DNA of 42,542 nucleotides, from NCBI GenBank assembly GCA_005882995.1, contig VBCY01000367.1, positions 1 through 42,542 on the forward strand. Reading direction: 5' to 3'. This document shows, one piece after another, positions 33,443 to 42,542 of the stretch; position 1 is the stretch's first letter; each line of letters starts with the position of its first letter. The translations under genes and the position numbers were made by a program. Source of the stretch: Betaproteobacteria bacterium (GTDB taxonomy: Bacteria > Pseudomonadota > Gammaproteobacteria > Burkholderiales > Casimicrobiaceae). The notes under the pieces are model-generated. The model saw only the letters and a list, made by a program, of their open reading frames with translations. It was not told where the DNA came from and ran no database searches.

Positions 33443-36055
33443 ATGAAACGTATGCTGTTCAACGCCACTCAGGCGGAAGAACTCAGGGTGGCGATCGTCG
33501 ATGGTCAGAAACTGATTGACCTTGACATCGAGTCCGCCAGCAAGGAACAACGCAAGAGCAACATCTACAAAGCGGTTATCACCCGCGTCGAGCCCAGCCT
33601 TGAAGCATGCTTCGTCGACTACGGTGCCGATCGGCACGGTTTCCTGCCTTTCAAGGAAATATCCCGCGACTATCTGCGCGATGGCGAAGGCGGCCGCAGC
33701 CGCATTCAGGACCAGCTCAAGGAAGGTCGCGAGCTGATCGTCCAGGTCGATAAGGACGAGCGCGGTAACAAAGGCGCTGCGCTTACAACTTACATTTCGC
33801 TCGCCGGCCGGTATCTGGTCCTGATGCCGAACAACCCCCGTGGCGGCGGCGTATCGCGCCGGATCGAGGGCGAAGAGCGCAATGAGCTGCGCGACACGAT
33901 CAGCCAGCTCCAGGTCCCGGATGGGATGAGCGTGATCGCTCGTACCGCGGGCATCGGCCGCTCGCTTGAAGAGCTGCAATGGGACTTGAACTACCTGCTC
34001 CAGCTCTGGCAGGCAATCGACGGCGCCGCGCAGAGCCAGACCGGCGCTTTCCTGATTTACCAGGAATCGAGCCTGGTCATCCGCGCGATACGCGACTACT
34101 TCCACCCGGATATCGGCGAAATCCTGATCGATACCGAATCGATTTATGAGCAGGCGCAGCAGTTCATGAGCCATGTCATGCCTGCCAACGTGCACCGGGT
34201 GAAGCTCTACAAGGACGACGTTCCCCTGTTCTCGCGCTTTCAGATCGAGCATCAGATCGAGACCGCGTACGCTCGCCAGGTGCCATTGCCCGCAGGGGGC
34301 GCGATCGTCATTGACCACACCGAAGCGCTGGTCTCAATAGACGTCAACTCGGCGCGGGCGACTCGCGCCGGAGATATCGAGACCACGGCCTTTCAGACCA
34401 ATCTGGAGGCCGCCGAAGAGATCGCTCGTCAGTTACGCCTGCGAGACCTTGGCGGTCTCATCGTCATCGACTTCATCGACATGGAGAGCGCGAAGAACCA
34501 GCGCGAGGTCGAGAATCGTCTCAAGGACGCGCTCAAGTACGACCGCGCCCGAGTGCAGCTCGGCAAGATTTCCCGCTTTGGGCTGATGGAGCTCTCACGC
34601 CAGCGTCTTCGCCCGGCGTTGGCGGAGTCGGCGTACATCGCCTGCCCTCGCTGCCACGGTATCGGACACATCCGCGGCACCGAATCCACCTCTCTTCATA
34701 TCCTGCGCATCCTGCAGGAAGAGGCGATGAAGGAAAACACTGCGCAAGTCGTGGCGCAGGTGCCAGTGGACGTTGCGACGTTCCTGCTCAACGAAAAGCG
34801 GGCCGAGATTCACACCATCGAGGCACGCTTCAAGGTCAATCTGTTGCTCGTTCCCAACAGGTACCTCGAGACGCCGAATTACAAATTGCAGCGACTCCGG
34901 CACGACGACCTCAATCAGGCAGAGCCGCTGCCGCCGAGCTTCGACATGGTGGAGCGACCGGAGGAAGAGGATATCGTCCAGCAGAAGAAGGAGGAGGCAC
35001 GCGAGCCGCGACAGGAAGCCGTCGTCAAGGGCATCACGCCGGTCCGCCCGGCTCCAATGCCGGTCGAGCGCGCAGCCGCGCCGGCGATACAGGAAAACTG
35101 GCTCAACAAAGTCCTTGGGTGGTTCCGTTCCAAGCCCGCAGAGGCCATAGCAGCTCCGGCTCCGGCAAGCCTTCCGCGGGACGCTCAAAGTCGCGCACGT
35201 GCGGATCGGGATCGCCGCGGACGTCGCGACGAGCGACCCGATCAGCCGCGCGATGGTCAGCGCGACTCGCGGCGGCAGCGCTCTTCTCAAGCCGGCCAAT
35301 CGCAGCAGCCGAAACGCGAGCGCGATCAGCCGCGCGACGCGCAACGCGGTGATACGCGCGATGAGCGCCGCGACGGATCAAGGCAACGTCCTCCGCGCGA
35401 AGCCAAAGCGCAGCAGGCCCAGCCCGTCACCATGGATCACAATGCGCCGGCGATAACCCAGGGTCAGCCGATTGCGCCCCGGGAAGGCGAGCGAGCTGAA
35501 GGGGGGCGCCGCAGGCGCGATCGGCGCCGCGGAGGTCGAGACCGCGGCGATCGCTCGGAACGCGCAGCTCAGGCTGAAAGAAGGCCGCAGGAGATCCGTG
35601 AAGAAGCCGCCGCGCCAGCGCCGTCCACCGAGGCGGCGGTATCAGGCGGCAAACTGGCAACGGACGATACGATTCCGAACGCGTGGACGCCTGTCGTGGC
35701 TCCGAGCGCAGCCCCGCCTCAGGAACGCGTCGACCCCGCAGCGCCGGAACCCGCGTCATCCCCGGTATCCGCTGCAACGCGCGCTGTCGTGGATACAGGC
35801 CCTCCCGCATTGGCGAGCCGCGACGAGGTCGACCTGCCTGGCAATGCGCCGGACATTCCTCGGGTATCGCTGCAACTGCCGCCAGAGTCGGATTTAGTGC
35901 TTGTCGAGACGACTCGAGAGCGCGCACCGGAAGCACTGGAGGAGGAACCTCAAATGCACCGTCGTGGGCGAGTGCGTCCGCCGCGCACCGAGATGCGCGA
36001 CGAACCCTTGCAAATGGTCGAGACGCACAAGGAATCATCGCCGCCGGGCGCTTGA
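33443..36055 (+). CDS. rne: Ribonuclease E
   Basis: Endoribonuclease at the centre of mRNA decay and rRNA/tRNA processing. It is 870 residues. The S1 domain spans about 35-125. The catalytic acidic residues are Asp300 ([10 protein letters not shown]) and Asp343 ([10 protein letters not shown]), matching D303 and D346 of E. coli. The Zn-link is Cys401-x-x-Cys404 (CPRCHGIG). The first 520 residues are therefore a complete catalytic core. From about 565 the sequence is low-complexity and rich in Arg, Asp and Gln, like the degradosome/RNA-binding scaffold, and it ends in a short acidic-hydrophobic motif ([10 protein letters not shown]). It is RNase E rather than RNase G by length. GAGGGGG precedes the ATG at 33443. 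Confidence 0.96.
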
Positions 36056-36182
36056 CGATTTATCGCTTTGGAAACGCAAGGCGGGCGTGACCCGGCTTGC
36101 GCCCATGGGAATGTGGAGCGGCTAAGGAACCCATTAAGCGTTTCCTAACTGCGTGACATCGGTTGCAATGTGGATGAGCTCG

Positions 36183-36273
36183 CCCTCACCCCAACCCCTT
36201 TCCCGCCGGGAGAGGAGTGCGCGACAGCGCGGGTGAGGGGTCAAATGTCGCTCGGTTGCGGAATTCTCAATAG
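36183..36273. repeat. Dispersed structured repeat, copy A
   Basis: Starts with CCCTCACC (36183-36190) and pairs with GGTGAGGG (36232-36239). Inside lie two hairpins: CCTTTCCC/GGGAGAGG and CGCG-ACAG-CGCG (36220-36231). A 33-nt tail (TCAAATGTCGCTC..., to 36273) matches copy B at 28 of 33 positions by eye. The tail supplies the TGA stop of the YdcF gene (36267-36269). It is in the gap between convergent rne and ydcF. Confidence 0.85.
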
Positions 36274-36914
36274 CTGCTCCCCATGGCGCGCGAAGTCCAT
36301 CGGACGAGGTTGCCGACTATTTCGTAGACGGCGTAGTAGCTGGTCCTCAATCCCCCCATGCTGGGGACGAAGTCCATCACCCTGGGCGCTTCATCGGAAG
36401 GGATGCCCGTCGGTGCGGCGAGTGTCCTGATCCCCGCTGACGCGAATTCGGCACGCGCGCGTGGCATATCGAAACTGTGCGCGACTAGCACGACGCTGCC
36501 GATGCCGGCTCGGTGGAGGATCTCTGCGGAATAGGTAGCGTTTTCGTGCGTATTTCGCGATCGGTCTTCCACCCAGCGGACATTGACGCCGAATTCGCGC
36601 TCCAGCGCGGCTTGCATCAGCTTGCCTTCCGCCTCGCCATCGAGGACCGTGCCTCCGGTCACCAACACGGGCAGATGAGTGAGCCGGGCCACACGGGCGC
36701 CGTATCGAACGCGCTCCAGTGTCAATTCAGCGAGCGTATCGCCGCCGTAGTCGGGAGCATGCCTGCGCACGCCGCCGCCGAGTATGACGATCGCTTGGGC
36801 TTCGGGTGCATGGACGATGTCGAACGGCGGGGACCGGTCAAGACTACGCACCAAGAATCCGCTTACGACGGGAAAGCAGAGCAAGAACAGAAGCACCACG
36901 CCGCTCCACGCCAT
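36267..36914 (-). CDS. YdcF/ElyC/SanA family envelope protein
   Basis: A DUF218 (YdcF-like) protein of 215 residues from the first available ATG. It has a membrane segment (about 3-20), then the DUF218 core: AQAIVILGGGVRRHAPDYGGD, LPVLVTGGTVLDGEAEGKLM, VEDRSRNTHENATYS and VVLVAHSFDMPRARAEF. ElyC affects peptidoglycan assembly in E. coli, and SanA affects the envelope barrier. The reading frame continues upstream for 40 codons without an ATG, GTG or TTG and encodes another good membrane segment (KALALPPTGLLLLAVAGLAL), as in full ElyC. An AAGGA site precedes an ATC at 37034. So the annotated start may be too short. It lies 135 bp downstream of the S1 protease gene. Confidence 0.85.
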   Translation of the reverse strand: MAWSGVVLLFLLCFPVVSGFLVRSLDRSPPFDIVHAPEAQAIVILGGGVRRHAPDYGGDTLAELTLERVRYGARVARLTHLPVLVTGGTVLDGEAEGKLMQAALEREFGVNVRWVEDRSRNTHENATYSAEILHRAGIGSVVLVAHSFDMPRARAEFASAGIRTLAAPTGIPSDEAPRVMDFVPSMGGLRTSYYAVYEIVGNLVRWTSRAMGSSY

Positions 36915-37049
36915 CGCAATGCCGGCGCGCGGAAGTCTGTGACGAAGCGCAAGACCGGCGACCGCGAGCAGAAGCAGCCCGGTCGGCGGCAGCGCCAGCG
37001 CCTTGATGATCGCCTTCAGCCAGACGACGTCGATTGCGCGTTCCTTCTT

Positions 37050-37850
37050 TCAGGGGGTTGTCTTGAGAAGGCTTTGCAAGCGGTTTGCCGGAACGGCGTA
37101 GGTAATTCCGCTCGGAGCAGTGAGGGCTGTTTCCTTCGTTCCCTTGACGAACACCATGTTAATCACGGCCAGCACTTCGCCGGTGGCCGGATCGTAAACC
37201 GGACTGCCGCTGTTGCCCGGATAAGCGGTCGCATCGAGTTGGAACACCGCGAAAGCGCCGCTCGCCAGGCGGCGGATCAGTTGCGCATCGAGGTTGCTTG
37301 CGCGAGGCTGCGCGATCGCGATCGGCGTGATGGCGGACACCATGCCGCGATGCGTTGCAGGAAAAGGACCGAGTACGGCACCTATTGGGAACCCGGTAAA
37401 CAGAATTTCCTGACCTTCCTTGACGCGATCCGAATCGCCGACCTTCAACGGCGGGAACCCCGCGCCCTGTACTTTGATGAGCGCCAGATCGGATTCCGCA
37501 TCCACGGCCATCTGCTTGGCTTCACGCCCCTGAGCCTGGTCACCGCTGTCTCTGGTTTGTCCCGGGACAAGGATCGCCAGGATCTCCTGATGCGCGGCAT
37601 CGAGCACTTTCGGCAGAACGTGGGCGTTGGTTGCGATCAGTGTTCCGTCTCCGACGGCGAAACCGGTACCGAGGAATTGAAACTGGGGCGTTCGTGTGCG
37701 CTCGAAGGTGCCGATCGCGACGACCGAGGCCTTCACGCGCTCGATGGTCAGCGAATTGTCCGCGTACGCGCCGGTCGCAGGCAGAAGCGAAGCCGTCAGC
37801 AGAGTAGCGCTTGCGAGCCAACGCAGCACTGCCGAAACGGTGCGACGCAA
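37050..37850 (-). CDS. Exported trypsin-like serine protease (S1 family)
   Basis: A 266-residue periplasmic protein with a Sec signal peptide (cleavage after AYA, about residue 30). The triad is His77 (IATNAHVL), Asp121 (ESDLALIKV) and Ser214 (YPGNSGSPV). There is no PDZ domain. The Ser motif is GNSGSP, so it is a peptidase of the HtrA-like S1 clan and not a pseudo-enzyme. It sits 15 bp downstream of the SLT gene and upstream of YdcF, within the polysaccharide block. A role in maturing or degrading exported proteins of that block is inference. It is unlike the S1C protease at 10934 in having a cleavable signal instead of a membrane anchor. Confidence 0.9.
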   Translation of the reverse strand: MRRTVSAVLRWLASATLLTASLLPATGAYADNSLTIERVKASVVAIGTFERTRTPQFQFLGTGFAVGDGTLIATNAHVLPKVLDAAHQEILAILVPGQTRDSGDQAQGREAKQMAVDAESDLALIKVQGAGFPPLKVGDSDRVKEGQEILFTGFPIGAVLGPFPATHRGMVSAITPIAIAQPRASNLDAQLIRRLASGAFAVFQLDATAYPGNSGSPVYDPATGEVLAVINMVFVKGTKETALTAPSGITYAVPANRLQSLLKTTP

Positions 37851-37865
37851 TCGGATCTTCGACTC

Positions 37866-38798
37866 CTACTGCGAAGAATCGGTGGGGCGCGAGACCACCG
37901 GCGAAGGTTCCACCGTGCGCGGATCGTAAGGATGTCTCTCGCTGGGATACAAGCGTAGCACCCGGCGCACGTAGTCGCGAGTCTCGCGATACGGCGGTAT
38001 GCCTCGATAGTGGTCGACCGCCGCCTCTCCAGCATTGTAGGCCGCCACGGCGAGCGCTACCTGGCCCTCGTAGTAGGCGAGCAGCCAGCGCAGGTAAGCG
38101 AGTCCTCCGCGAATATTCTCTTTCGCGTCCAGGCGATTCTTGACGCTGAAGCGGGTGGCGGTCGTGGCGATGAGCTGCATCACCCCCCGAGCATCCTTGG
38201 GTGAACGGGCGTCGGGCTGGAAGTTCGATTCCGTCGTAACGATCGCCAGCGCAAGCCGCGGGTCGATGGAGTAACCGGGCGCGGCCTGAACGACGAGCTG
38301 TGCAATGCGTTTCTTGTCAGGCGGCAAATCATTGATTGGATCGGCGGACGCAACTGTGGCTGCTTCGACAGTATCCGGCTGCGCCGGCAGCATGCATTCG
38401 AGCACGATCCCCTGGTCTTCACCGACAAAACGAACCATGTCGCGCGCCTGCGCGTGCCCGAGCCTAGCCGCCCGCGCAAAAAGCGAGGCCGCTATCGCTT
38501 CGTCATGCGCCACACCTCTTCCGTTGGCATACATCCAGCCAAGGCCGAACATGCCGTTGGTGTCTCCGTCACGAGCGGCCTGGCAATAGAGCTCTGCCGC
38601 CAATTTCTGATCTTTGCGCACGCCCTCGCCGTGCTCGTAAGCGATTGCCTTGGTGACGAGTTCGGTTGTCTCTGTCGCCGCCAGGCCAGGCTCGGGCTCT
38701 GCTGCAGCAAGCGTCGATACGGCCAGCGCTGCGATCAGGAATGCGCAGCGCGGCTTTGGGCCGATGGCCTTGCGATCAGGCAGCGCCTCGAACATCAT
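37866..38798 (-). CDS. Sel1-repeat lytic transglycosylase (SLT domain)
   Basis: A 310-residue exported protein. A signal peptide (about 1-33) is followed by two Sel1-type repeats (about 46-122: AIAYEHGEGV..., LGWMYANGRGVAHD). The SLT domain (about 163-290) follows, with catalytic Glu190 in LAIVTTESNF, the GVMQLIATTA motif and AYNAGEAAV. It should cleave glycan strands of peptidoglycan with formation of 1,6-anhydroMurNAc. The frame is open upstream to 39557, but that part is antisense-like overlap with the epimerase. The ATG at 38798 (or 38795) overlaps the epimerase stop by 23 bp. Its place in the exopolysaccharide block suggests making room in the wall for an export machine. Confidence 0.91.
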   Translation of the reverse strand: MMFEALPDRKAIGPKPRCAFLIAALAVSTLAAAEPEPGLAATETTELVTKAIAYEHGEGVRKDQKLAAELYCQAARDGDTNGMFGLGWMYANGRGVAHDEAIAASLFARAARLGHAQARDMVRFVGEDQGIVLECMLPAQPDTVEAATVASADPINDLPPDKKRIAQLVVQAAPGYSIDPRLALAIVTTESNFQPDARSPKDARGVMQLIATTATRFSVKNRLDAKENIRGGLAYLRWLLAYYEGQVALAVAAYNAGEAAVDHYRGIPPYRETRDYVRRVLRLYPSERHPYDPRTVEPSPVVSRPTDSSQ

Positions 38799-39879
38799 TG
38801 ACACTACGCGCGCGCTGGAAGCTGGCTTGAGCGAAGTGAGCTTCGTACCAAGGGAGCGCCTCAGACAGGCCGGCTTTGACGTCATGGGTCGGTTGGTAGC
38901 CGAGTACCCGGCGCGCTTTGGAGACATCGGCCTGAGAATGGCGGATATCGCCGGGCCGGAATGCCTTGTGAGTCGCTGCCGGGATGTGCAACCCGGTATG
39001 GGTCGCTCGGACGAGCTCGCGCATGGCGTCGTAGAGCTCGTTGAGAGACATACGACCTCCAACGGCCACGTTGAACACTTCGCCAAGGGCGGCTCGATCC
39101 TCGGTTGTGGCAGCGAGCAAGTTCGCCTGGACGATGTTGGCAATGTAGCAAAAGTCCCGTGTGGTTTCACCGTCGCCATAGATCGTGACCGGGGCACCGG
39201 ACAGCATCGCGGCGGCCCAGCGCGGAATGACGGCGGCGTATGCTCCCTTGGGGTCCTGGCGTGGGCCAAACACATTGAAGTAGCGCAGGCCCACCGTTTC
39301 CAACCCGTAGCATTGACCGAAAACCTGTGCGTAGAGTTCATCGACGTACTTACTGACCGCATAGGGAGAGAGTGGTCTGCCAATCGACTCTTCGACCTTG
39401 GGAAGTCCGGGATGGTCACCATAGGTTGAGCTCGAGCCGGCGTAAACGAATCGGTTGACGCCGGCATCGCGTGCCGCGACCAGCAGATTGAGGCAGCCGG
39501 TAGCGTTCGCTGCGTGACTGGCGAGCGGGTCCTCAATCGAACGCGGCACGGAGCCAAGCGCTGCCTGGTGAAGTACGACGTCGATGCCTTCGCACGCGCT
39601 GCGACAGGCGTCGAGATTGCCCAAGTCCGCTTCCAGGAATGTATGACGCTGCCAGGCCGAATCCCCGACCAGGGCGCGAACTTCGTCGAGGTTGCTGCGA
39701 TATCCCGTCGAAAAATTATCCAGACTTACAATGTCCTGATCGTGGCGGAGCAAGGTCTCGAGAAGATGCGACCCGATGAATCCGGCGCTGCCGGTGACCA
39801 GCCATCGCCTGCGCCGTCCAGCGAGCCGGACACGCAGCGTTGTCGGGAGCTCGGCAGCGAGCGGCGAGGCAGTGATCAT
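38776..39879 (-). CDS. UDP-N-acetylhexosamine 4-epimerase-like SDR (WbpP/TviC type)
   Basis: A 367-residue extended SDR enzyme. The NAD-binding motif is VTGSAGFIGSHLLETLL, the catalytic Tyr-Lys pair is in SPYAVSKYVDEL, and the substrate segment is RYFNVFGPRQDP. It most resembles the WbpP/TviC group that epimerises UDP-GlcNAc or UDP-GlcNAcA at C4. The ATG at 39879 overlaps the dehydrogenase stop (ATGA). Together the two would make UDP-N-acetylgalactosaminuronic acid or a related acidic precursor for a surface polysaccharide. The exact substrate (acidic or neutral) cannot be fixed from sequence. A further in-frame start at 40056 lies within the dehydrogenase gene and is not used. Confidence 0.9.
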   Translation of the reverse strand: MITASPLAAELPTTLRVRLAGRRRRWLVTGSAGFIGSHLLETLLRHDQDIVSLDNFSTGYRSNLDEVRALVGDSAWQRHTFLEADLGNLDACRSACEGIDVVLHQAALGSVPRSIEDPLASHAANATGCLNLLVAARDAGVNRFVYAGSSSTYGDHPGLPKVEESIGRPLSPYAVSKYVDELYAQVFGQCYGLETVGLRYFNVFGPRQDPKGAYAAVIPRWAAAMLSGAPVTIYGDGETTRDFCYIANIVQANLLAATTEDRAALGEVFNVAVGGRMSLNELYDAMRELVRATHTGLHIPAATHKAFRPGDIRHSQADVSKARRVLGYQPTHDVKAGLSEALPWYEAHFAQASFQRARSVNDVRGAA

Positions 39880-41165
39880 AGCCTCCACACCGTGATCCCC
39901 TGGGCGCGCAATGCGCTCGCATCGGCGTGGCATTTGACGTCCACATACAAGCCGCCTCGCTCGAGCTTCGCCACATATTCGTGCAGAGGCCGCTCTGCGA
40001 ACTGGCGATGCGCAACAGCAGCGACGATGGCGTTGGCGCGCGGCAACTCTTCCCACGCCTTGAGCTTGACGCCGTACTCTCGAAGTGCGTCCGCCGATTC
40101 CGCCACCGGATCATGAACGTGCACTTCAATGCCGTAGGAGACAAGCTCCTGGACGATGTCGATGACTCGGGTGTTGCGGATATCGGGACAGTTCTCCTTG
40201 AAGGTGAGGCCGAGCACGTTGACGTGCGCGCCCTTGACCGGAAACCCTGCCTGGATCATCTGTTTCACCGTCTGCTCGGCAACGTATTTGCCCATGCCGT
40301 CGTTGATGCGGCGGCCGGCAAGGATGACCTGCGGGTGATACCCGAGCTTGTCCGCCTTATGCGTCAGGTAATACGGATCAACGCCGATGCAGTGCCCGCC
40401 GACAAGCCCGGGGCGGAAGGAAAGAAAGTTCCACTTGGTGCCCGCCGCCTGCAGCACTTCCGTCGTGTCGAGATCCATCTTGTGAAAGAGGAGCGCGAGC
40501 TCATTCATCAGTGCGATGTTCAGATCCCGCTGCGTGTTCTCGATCACCTTTGCCGCTTCGGCCACCTTGATGCTGCTCGCGCGATGCACGCCGGCAGCGA
40601 CGATGCTGCCGTAAATGGACGCCACCTTTTCAAGCGTATCGGGTGTGTCGCCAGAAACCACTTTGGTGATTCGAGTAAGCGTGTGCTCCTTGTCACCCGG
40701 ATTGATGCGTTCGGGCGAGTAGCCGACGAAGAAGTCGCGCTTCCATCGCATGCCCGACCGCTGTTCCAGGATCGGCACGCACACCTCTTCGGTTGCTCCC
40801 GGATAGACTGTCGATTCGAATACCACGGTCGCTCCGTGCCTCAAATTGGACCCGACGGTCTCGCTGGCAGAGATCAAAGGAGCAAAATCCGGCCGGTGCG
40901 CGTCATCGACCGGCGTGGGAACGGCAACGACGATGAACTCGGCGTCGCGAAGGTCTACCGCTTCGGTTGTGAACCGGATGCCGGTCGCCGCACGGAACTG
41001 TTCCGAGCTCACCTCACGCGTTGGGTCGATGCCTTCCTTGTACGCCGCGATCTTGCTTCGTGACAGGTCGAAGCCGATCGTCGGATATTTCTTCCCGAAC
41101 TCGATGGCGAGCGGAAGTCCGACGTAGCCGAGGCCGACAACTGCAATCGTTACACTCTTGTTCAT
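39876..41165 (-). CDS. UDP-N-acetylhexosamine 6-dehydrogenase (TviB/WbpO type)
   Basis: A 429-residue UDP-sugar dehydrogenase with three domains. The N-terminal NAD site is AVVGLGYVGLPLAIEFG (residues 9-24). A middle helical region and the C-terminal UDP-binding domain follow. The nucleophile is Cys259 in GLVGGHCIGVDPYYL. Motifs VFESTVYPGATEE and GLTFKENCPDIRNTRV place it with the TviB/WbpO/WbpA group that oxidises UDP-GlcNAc or UDP-GalNAc at C6, not UDP-glucose. It is the first gene after the repeat copy B and is coupled to the epimerase. Such pairs occur in PEP-CTERM/exosortase exopolysaccharide clusters, which agrees with the TPR neighbour. Confidence 0.93.
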   Translation of the reverse strand: MNKSVTIAVVGLGYVGLPLAIEFGKKYPTIGFDLSRSKIAAYKEGIDPTREVSSEQFRAATGIRFTTEAVDLRDAEFIVVAVPTPVDDAHRPDFAPLISASETVGSNLRHGATVVFESTVYPGATEEVCVPILEQRSGMRWKRDFFVGYSPERINPGDKEHTLTRITKVVSGDTPDTLEKVASIYGSIVAAGVHRASSIKVAEAAKVIENTQRDLNIALMNELALLFHKMDLDTTEVLQAAGTKWNFLSFRPGLVGGHCIGVDPYYLTHKADKLGYHPQVILAGRRINDGMGKYVAEQTVKQMIQAGFPVKGAHVNVLGLTFKENCPDIRNTRVIDIVQELVSYGIEVHVHDPVAESADALREYGVKLKAWEELPRANAIVAAVAHRQFAERPLHEYVAKLERGGLYVDVKCHADASALRAQGITVWRL

Positions 41166-41200
41166 ATCCTGAATTTGCGTAAGCGCGCGCTAAAAGCTGG

Positions 41201-41293
41201 CCCTCACCCCCAACCCCTCTCCCGCCGGGAGAGAGGGGTGCGCGACAGCGCGGGTGAGGGTCAAACGTCACTCAGTTGCGTAATTCTCACTAG
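41201..41293. repeat. Dispersed structured repeat, copy B
   Basis: Same orientation as copy A. CCCTCACC (41201-41208) pairs with GGTGAGGG (41253-41260). Inner hairpins are CCCCTCTCCC/GGGAGAGAGGGG (41214-41238) and CGCG-ACAG-CGCG (41241-41252). The 33-nt tail (41261-41293) ends at the TAG stop of the TPR gene. It lies in the 124-bp gap between the TPR gene and the dehydrogenase gene, both on the minus strand. Confidence 0.85.
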
Positions 41294-42542
41294 ATGCCCG
41301 CGAGAAGCTTTTCCGCCTCCGCACGAACGGATGATGCCGATTCGGCCTTCGAAAGCTTCTCGAGCTCCCGTCGAGCCGATGCCTTGTCGCCCGATTTCAG
41401 CAGCGCTTGTGCGAAATGCAACCGGATCTCGTCATTCGTCGGCGCAAGATTGGATGCCACGCGCAGCAGTTCGGTGCCTTTGCCACCATCGCCGGTACGC
41501 ACCAGCGCCCAGCCGTAGGTATCGACGATGCTCGCATTGTTAGGTGCCTGCCGGAATGCACGCTCCGCATAGTCGGTGGCTCTGCGGTCGCCAAGTTCGG
41601 TGAGCGCGTAGGCGAGGTTGTTCAACACCTGCGCATTGTCCGGGTCGCGCTTGAGCGCAGCCTCGAGGGAAGCAACTGCATCCTTATAGTCCTTATTCAA
41701 GACGCTTTGCTCGCCCAGATAGATGTAAAAGGTCGGATCCTTGGGATTTTCCTTGAGCCATCGATCTGCAAGTACGCTCGCTTGCGCCTTGTTTCCCATC
41801 TTGAGCAGCGTGCTGTAGTAGCGCACTGCGACGATGGGAAGGGGCTGCCGCCTGAGCGACTCACCGTAGGCATTCGCCGCTTCAGGCCACTTCTTTTGTG
41901 CGGCGAACACTTCCGCCTCGAGCGTATAGCCCAATCCGCGATCGGGATGCTCCTTTTGCTGTTTGCGAGCCTCTGCAATCGCGTCATCGGGACGGCCGGA
42001 GAGGAAATAGACCTTCGCGAGGTTCGCCCAGGCCATCGCGTCGTCGGGTTGGATCCTGAGCGCCGACTGCAGTGAATCAATCGCTCCCTGATAGTCCTTC
42101 ACAGTCGCCTGCGCCTCGGCGAGACGCATCAGCGCGGCGGGACTCTGTGGCTGCATCTGCACCAGCTGACGGAAGCTATCGAGCGCCTGATTGGTTTCAC
42201 CCGCAGCAAGTTGTGTTGCCCCCAATGCTTCCACCATCTGCGGCTCATTGCGGAACGCTTCTTTCGCCGTCTGGGCCGCCGCCAGCGCGGATTTCCGATC
42301 GCCAAGCTGAAGGTAATACGAGACCAAGGCGAGGCGGGGTCGCACGGCGGTCGGGTTGGCCGCAATTCCTCGCTCGATGGCCGCCTTTACTTCATCGGGA
42401 GAATGCCCCGTCATGGCCAGGACCTCCGCGAGCCCCATCAGCAGCAGTTCGTCCTTGGGATTTTTCTCGAGCATGCGTTCATAGCGCTTGCGGGCGTCTT
42501 CCGGCTTTTGCTCCTCGACGTCCAGCATCGCCAGATTGCGTG
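41290..42542 (-). CDS. TPR protein resembling PEP-CTERM system PrsT, N-terminus beyond window
   Basis: The frame is open to the right edge, so only the C-terminal 416 residues or so are seen (an internal Met at 42528 is not the start). About ten TPR units of 34 residues are visible, e.g. PAALMRLAEAQATVKDYQGA, AMAWANLAKVYFLSGRPDDA and AQVLNNLAYALTELGDRRA. No catalytic domain is present. The repeat spacing and phrases such as NLAMLDVEEQKPEDARKRYE resemble PrsT (TIGR02917), a roughly 900-residue protein of PEP-CTERM/exosortase polysaccharide clusters. If so, an exosortase locus should continue to the right. A generic TPR secretion protein is the alternative. It ends at the repeat copy B. Confidence 0.75.
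   Translation of the reverse strand, partial: RNLAMLDVEEQKPEDARKRYERMLEKNPKDELLLMGLAEVLAMTGHSPDEVKAAIERGIAANPTAVRPRLALVSYYLQLGDRKSALAAAQTAKEAFRNEPQMVEALGATQLAAGETNQALDSFRQLVQMQPQSPAALMRLAEAQATVKDYQGAIDSLQSALRIQPDDAMAWANLAKVYFLSGRPDDAIAEARKQQKEHPDRGLGYTLEAEVFAAQKKWPEAANAYGESLRRQPLPIVAVRYYSTLLKMGNKAQASVLADRWLKENPKDPTFYIYLGEQSVLNKDYKDAVASLEAALKRDPDNAQVLNNLAYALTELGDRRATDYAERAFRQAPNNASIVDTYGWALVRTGDGGKGTELLRVASNLAPTNDEIRLHFAQALLKSGDKASARRELEKLSKAESASSVRAEAEKLLAGI

Follow-up and report, generated by a model that had tools for sequence, protein, structure and literature searches.

The window analyzed here is the whole 42,542-nt stretch of contig VBCY01000367.1. It holds two copies of a repeat, each of which meets a minus-strand gene exactly at its stop codon. 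The features of the two loci are as follows.

36132..36272, plus strand: copy 1 of the repeat, full-length and 141 bp, very probably an IS630-type MITE (149 bits with an nhmmer model of 20 copies)
36132..36159, plus strand: left terminal inverted repeat (TIR) of copy 1, with TATTGAGCGTTTCCTAACTGCGTGACAT common to the aligned copies
36183..36240, plus strand: palindromic core of copy 1 (CCCTCACCCC...GGGTGAGGGG), found in other genomes also without TIRs
36245..36272, minus strand: right TIR of copy 1, the "tail" of a preliminary description; read inward, each of the three frames of its consensus meets a stop
36267..36269, minus strand: element-derived TGA stop codon of the YdcF-like gene, lying inside the repeat
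36267..36914, minus strand: YdcF-like gene (DUF218; Pfam PF02698, E 6e-27)
41194..41292, plus strand: copy 2, left-truncated (model positions 45-141; nhmmer 102 bits)
41290..41292, minus strand: TAG stop codon that ends the TPR gene at the target TA, with the TGA of the TIR next to it at 41287-41289
41290..42528, minus strand: TPR-repeat gene (Pfam TPR families)

Aligned without gaps, the tails of the two copies (36240-36273 and 41260-41293) were identical at 29 of 34 positions, close to the 28 of 33 that the preliminary description had counted by eye. Both junctions are also as it reported, with the TGA within the tail ending the YdcF-like gene and a TAG directly before the same TGA ending the TPR gene. 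The extent that it gave to the repeat was too small, since the whole element runs from 36132 to 36272 and the tail is its right TIR. Nor is the tail unstructured: it base-pairs with the left arm when copy 1 is folded in silico (−57 and −54 kcal/mol on the two strands). Copy 1 lies between two convergent genes, an RNase E-like gene and the YdcF-like gene, and has CATTAAG (a mutated TATTGAG) at its left end and CTCAATA at its right end. The TGA of the YdcF-like gene is preceded by a TAT codon (36270-36272) built from the target TA and the first T of the element. Copy 2 lacks model positions 1-44 at its left end. A search of window positions 36000-41400 against the curated families of Rfam gave no match at E ≤ 1, and plasmid BLAST of the rne region returned nothing beyond rne-like matches among the five matches listed.

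A 101-bp query over the tail had at least 42 matches in its own genome (best non-self E 1e-31), a lower bound that reflects the scoring of 40 of 91 first-look candidates. When the flanks of 30 copies were extended, the repeat emerged as a 141-bp unit with inverted ends (TATTGAG...CTCAATA), namely TATTGAGCGTTTCCTAACTGCGTGACAT at its left and, in the inward direction, TATTGAGAATTACGCAACTGAGTGACGT at its right. The TIRs are 28 bp long and imperfect, with identity at 21 of 28 positions between left and right 28-mers, and they enclose a GC-rich, palindromic core. End patterns with up to three mismatches found 47 left and 35 right ends, compared with 0 for the reversed-pattern controls. A profile search of 53 fetched pieces (221 kb) gave 58 matches of at least 35 bits, and thus at least 56 elements in the 5.29-Mb genome once two elements, in C104 and C285, each split by an insertion, had been merged; this count retains C20/C399 and C31/C308, which have shared flanks and could each represent one locus counted twice. 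Matches below 35 bits or overlapping a better match were left out, a fragment in C373 among them. The left end in C373 was considered as a possible parent and rejected, being a fragment that adjoins ordinary genes. The element is therefore short (141 bp), noncoding, with stops in three frames from each end, and present in many copies, and it is bounded by TIRs, as is characteristic of MITEs. The insertions that split the elements at G000:C104:3146-3557 and G000:C285:4201-4543 are similar to each other, about 200 to 280 bp long, and have TAAGGAACCTCTGAA-like ends; they represent a further repeat family.

Among the 36 two-ended elements, 24 were bounded by TA on both sides and 12 on one side. 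The base outside the element was a pyrimidine (C/T) in 42 of the 43 left ends and a purine (A/G) in 43 of the 45 right ends, so that the target is YTAR, which reads TAA or TAG on either strand. Among strict two-ended elements, 29 of 31 had YTAR, and an empty site would hold a single TA. The pattern recurred in G016, a genome of the same family, where Y preceded 25 of 26 ends and three gene stops all lay in the same frame. This target is CTAG-like, and a preference of IS630 for CTAG is stated in the title of Tenzen and Ohtsubo 1991 as given in the reference list of PMC2170065; in the accessible part of PMC2170065, ISY100 is described as inserting almost only at TA.

A genome of the same order (G110) carries 1101-bp IS elements with ends TATTGAGAATTACATAAC and two overlapping frames, one with DDE_3 and the other with HTH domains. 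Beyond the TA, the MITE ends were identical to these IS ends at 18 to 19 of 26 positions, compared with a mean of 6.4 (standard deviation, 2.2) for 3,758 TA-starting stretches, a null set that still held a few element ends and reached a maximum of 22. In the window genome itself, a single DDE_3 gene was found (G000:C98); it has TACTGAG ends 1,109 bp apart, which were detected by an inverted-repeat script where a strict end pattern had given 0 matches. Its likeness to the MITE ends is moderate (13 to 17 of 26) and thus weaker than that of the G110 IS; no exact helper transposase was found in the window genome. The same script found no such ends at L177, the DDE_3 locus of G001. At L111:935-2043 and L168:1501-2601, IS630-type elements encode their HTH and DDE_3 portions in separate frames that overlap, which suggests frameshifting.

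The window element thus resembles IS630/Tc1-mariner IS (IS630 and ISY100) and their MITEs in having TA at both ends, and it resembles such IS in its CTAG-like target and in that elements with similar ends encode a DDE_3 transposase. Unlike the autonomous IS, it has no transposase inside. We consider it very probable that the repeat is a non-autonomous IS630-type (Tc1/mariner-like) MITE of ~141 bp and that its link to stop codons is a by-product rather than an RNA 3′-end function.

Read inward, the consensus has the first stops of its three frames at positions 4, 15, and 23 from the left and at positions 4, 23, and 30 from the right, and all three frames stop within 32 bases from either end. 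Both ends start with TTGAG after the TA, and the frame of the struck stop codon ends first, as TAT-TGA. A gene ended exactly on the target TA at 13 of the 56 elements (seven via the left end and six via the right), which bears out the earlier claim that the repeat supplies stop codons. Nine of these genes use the TGA of the element after one codon, eight as TAT-TGA and one as CAT-TGA, while the other four end in TAG or TAA formed by the TA and a changed third base. All 13 stop in the TA frame, and no called gene stopped in either of the other two frames at any of the 56 elements. The opposite end was intact in eight of the 13 cases, and the rebuilt ancestral codon was TAA or TAG in all eight; in the other five it could not be rebuilt. 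Orthologues of both window genes lie on the same contig in G006. The TPR orthologue there ends without an element at the matching residue (KLLSSL-stop versus KLLAGI-stop in the window), and the YdcF orthologue has a TAG end no more than 4 residues from that of the window gene, and the next 260 bases are free of the element. The first TIR base after the TA was changed to A or G in four of the 13 stop cases (window positions 41290-41292 and the elements in C104, C465, and C587) versus 5 of 81 other ends (P = 0.019, from few and partly degenerate ends).

Taken together, these junctions are real, repeated, and mechanistically clear, and they are what is expected of an IS630-type MITE with TTGA ends inserted at TAA or TAG. 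An IS630-type transposase probably moved the MITE in trans, a DDE_3 copy with similar ends being present in the genome. Insertion would take place at the TA within YTAR, including TAA and TAG stop codons, and the first letters of the element would turn a struck stop codon into TAT-TGA, at the cost of one added tyrosine and with survival of the gene. Insertions inside genes would be lost by selection, leaving intergenic insertions and those at stop codons. Junctions with stop codons would then arise because the target sequence (YTAR) and the TTGA end sequence combine. Such an account explains the joins between repeat and gene without a 3′-end function, makes TAA and TAG sites nearly cost-free, and cautions against taking repeat-supplied stop codons for regulation.

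The share of elements in stop codons was close to the share of sites available. Outside the elements, the same pieces contain YTAR sites inside called genes (n = 131), between genes (n = 153), and in stop codons (n = 34). Stop codons thus make up 34 of 187 non-interior sites (18%) versus 13 of 56 elements (23%; P = 0.21), relative to a null drawn from the pieces around elements rather than from the whole genome. Special targeting of stop codons is therefore not needed. With smaller denominators, the binomial P value for the 13 stop cases was 0.15 (n = 53), 0.11 (n = 50), and 0.053 (n = 45), the last of which leaves room for a mild extra preference. An active preference for stop codons beyond YTAR, through termination coupling or a longer target motif, for example, would fit the higher share among elements and the value obtained with only 45 of them. 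We consider it improbable, given the lack of significance with all 56 elements and a CTAG preference of IS630 that is already in print, by the title cited in PMC2170065, and suffices. No element (0 of 56) lay inside a called gene, compared with 131 of 318 YTAR sites, which we read as selection; gene calls for these statistics came from our own codon-usage caller, and an insertion-broken gene could escape calling.

The preliminary description had proposed a mobile 3′-end module acting on the minus strand, with a hairpin that terminates transcription or protects mRNA and is hence kept at gene ends. The mobile and stop-supplying parts of that proposal stand, but a dedication to gene 3′ ends does not. 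The very stable fold on either strand, the 13 genes that end in an element, and the 12 of 56 elements found between convergent genes are all compatible with such a module. However, eight of the 56 are flanked by divergent genes, a setting in which no gene ends, 43 of 56 lie outside stop codons, both orientations are used by the genes that end on elements, and the share in stop codons is near that of available sites. Neither window copy has the GC hairpin followed by a T-run of an intrinsic terminator, and consensus scans found no terminator-like or promoter-like site inside either copy; the one terminator-like match (36082-36094) is outside. A role in termination or mRNA protection is thus very unlikely.

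Orientation is biased in the direction opposite to minus-strand action. Of 23 elements between tandem genes, 19 have the plus strand as sense strand (P = 0.0026), and copy 2 (41194-41292) is one of the four exceptions. When genes were called more strictly or the distance was limited, the ratios were 13:4, 13:4, 12:3, and 8:3 (P = 0.05, 0.05, 0.04, and 0.23, respectively). Gene 3′ ends were faced by left ends at a ratio of 30:12 and by right ends at a ratio of 14:28 (Fisher P = 0.0009). The trend was alike in G016 but not significant (3:11 versus 6:5; P = 0.115). One guess is that the bias may reflect a polarity of the minus-strand transcript.

Other MITEs and repeats offer parallels to a MITE of the IS630 type with stops at its ends. 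RUP of Streptococcus pneumoniae is a TA-flanked sequence of ~107 bp, proposed as a MITE of IS630-Spn1, with stops in all six frames (PMC2229807). It is like the window element in being short and TA-flanked and in having stops in its frames, but it differs in sequence and host, and insertion into stop codons is not mentioned for RUP in the accessible part of PMC2229807. For the BOX elements of S. pneumoniae, the accessible part of PMC3049150 gives 36 annotated genes with a BOX-encoded stop and no clear truncation. The likeness to our elements lies in repeat-encoded stop codons without clear gene truncation, whereas BOX elements are modular and unrelated in sequence, with TIRs proposed to be ISSpn2-like (PMC3049150).

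That the repeat is instead of the REP/BIME type and depends on a RAYT transposase for its movement, with incidental flanks, is hardly credible: its core is a REP-like palindrome found alone in many relatives, but what is repeated in this genome is the complete 141-bp element, including its TIRs and terminal TA (on both sides in 24 of the 36 elements with two ends), and there is no GTAG tag at the ends. By eye, the window core also has no 20- to 40-bp palindrome with one end tagged by GTAG or CGTC. As far as the accessible text of PMC3733652 goes, GTAG REP ends often supply the stop codon of flanking open reading frames, and some REP dimers lie inside longer palindromes. Both traits have counterparts here, and the principle is accordingly not new. 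The difference is that the shell here is an IS630-type TIR pair around a window core without either tag at its ends. Among the open-license papers that our searches listed, no title or abstract opening described this shell or the rescue from YTAR to TAT-TGA.

Cores and shells are separable, since the CCCTCACCCC core is frequent without TIRs and similar shells occur with other cores. Clear TIRs were found in 1 of 29 core loci from relatives (G006). At 28 stand-alone-core loci (L114-L141), the best scores for TIR remnants were within the range of random windows; the null reached both top scores (16 for the left end of L118 and 15 for the right end of L137). In G016 and in G079, a genome of another family, similar ends surround another core, which consists of two CGTC-tagged palindromes placed head to head. 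The pattern TGAC-17 bases-CGTC (up to 1 mismatch) occurred 50 times in G016, 45 times in G005, and 15 times in G079, compared with rough chance expectations of 12.6, 7.3, and 1.1, respectively, for which the numerator allows a mismatch and the denominator does not. Counts in G118, G032, and G014 (37, 23, and 20) were near expectation (24.5, 18.4, and 13.8). The bare 13-base REP head was found 248, 144, and 22 times in G016, G005, and G079, respectively.

It is possible, although we offer it tentatively, that IS630-type TIR shells act in these bacteria as general-purpose carriers for REP-like hairpins, with the CCCTCACCCC core in one case and CGTC REP dimers at 17-nt spacing (G016, G005, and G079) in the other. 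If so, the shells would provide a vehicle for CGTC REPs, their ends would make stop codons harmless landing sites, and element orientation would then be sorted by transcription. CGTC REPs are reported without a dedicated transposase, and what moves them is a stated open question in the accessible text of PMC3733652, on which REP dimers inside IS630-type shells would bear. IS630-type end repeats around CGTC REP dimers, at a constant spacing of 17 nt, were seen at L217, L202, and L213 (G016) and at L182 (G079), and in G005 by pattern. A dense cluster of CCCTCACCCC-type cores, with at least about 15 matches in ~3 kb, was also observed at G083:C1 (~2,064,900-2,068,200).
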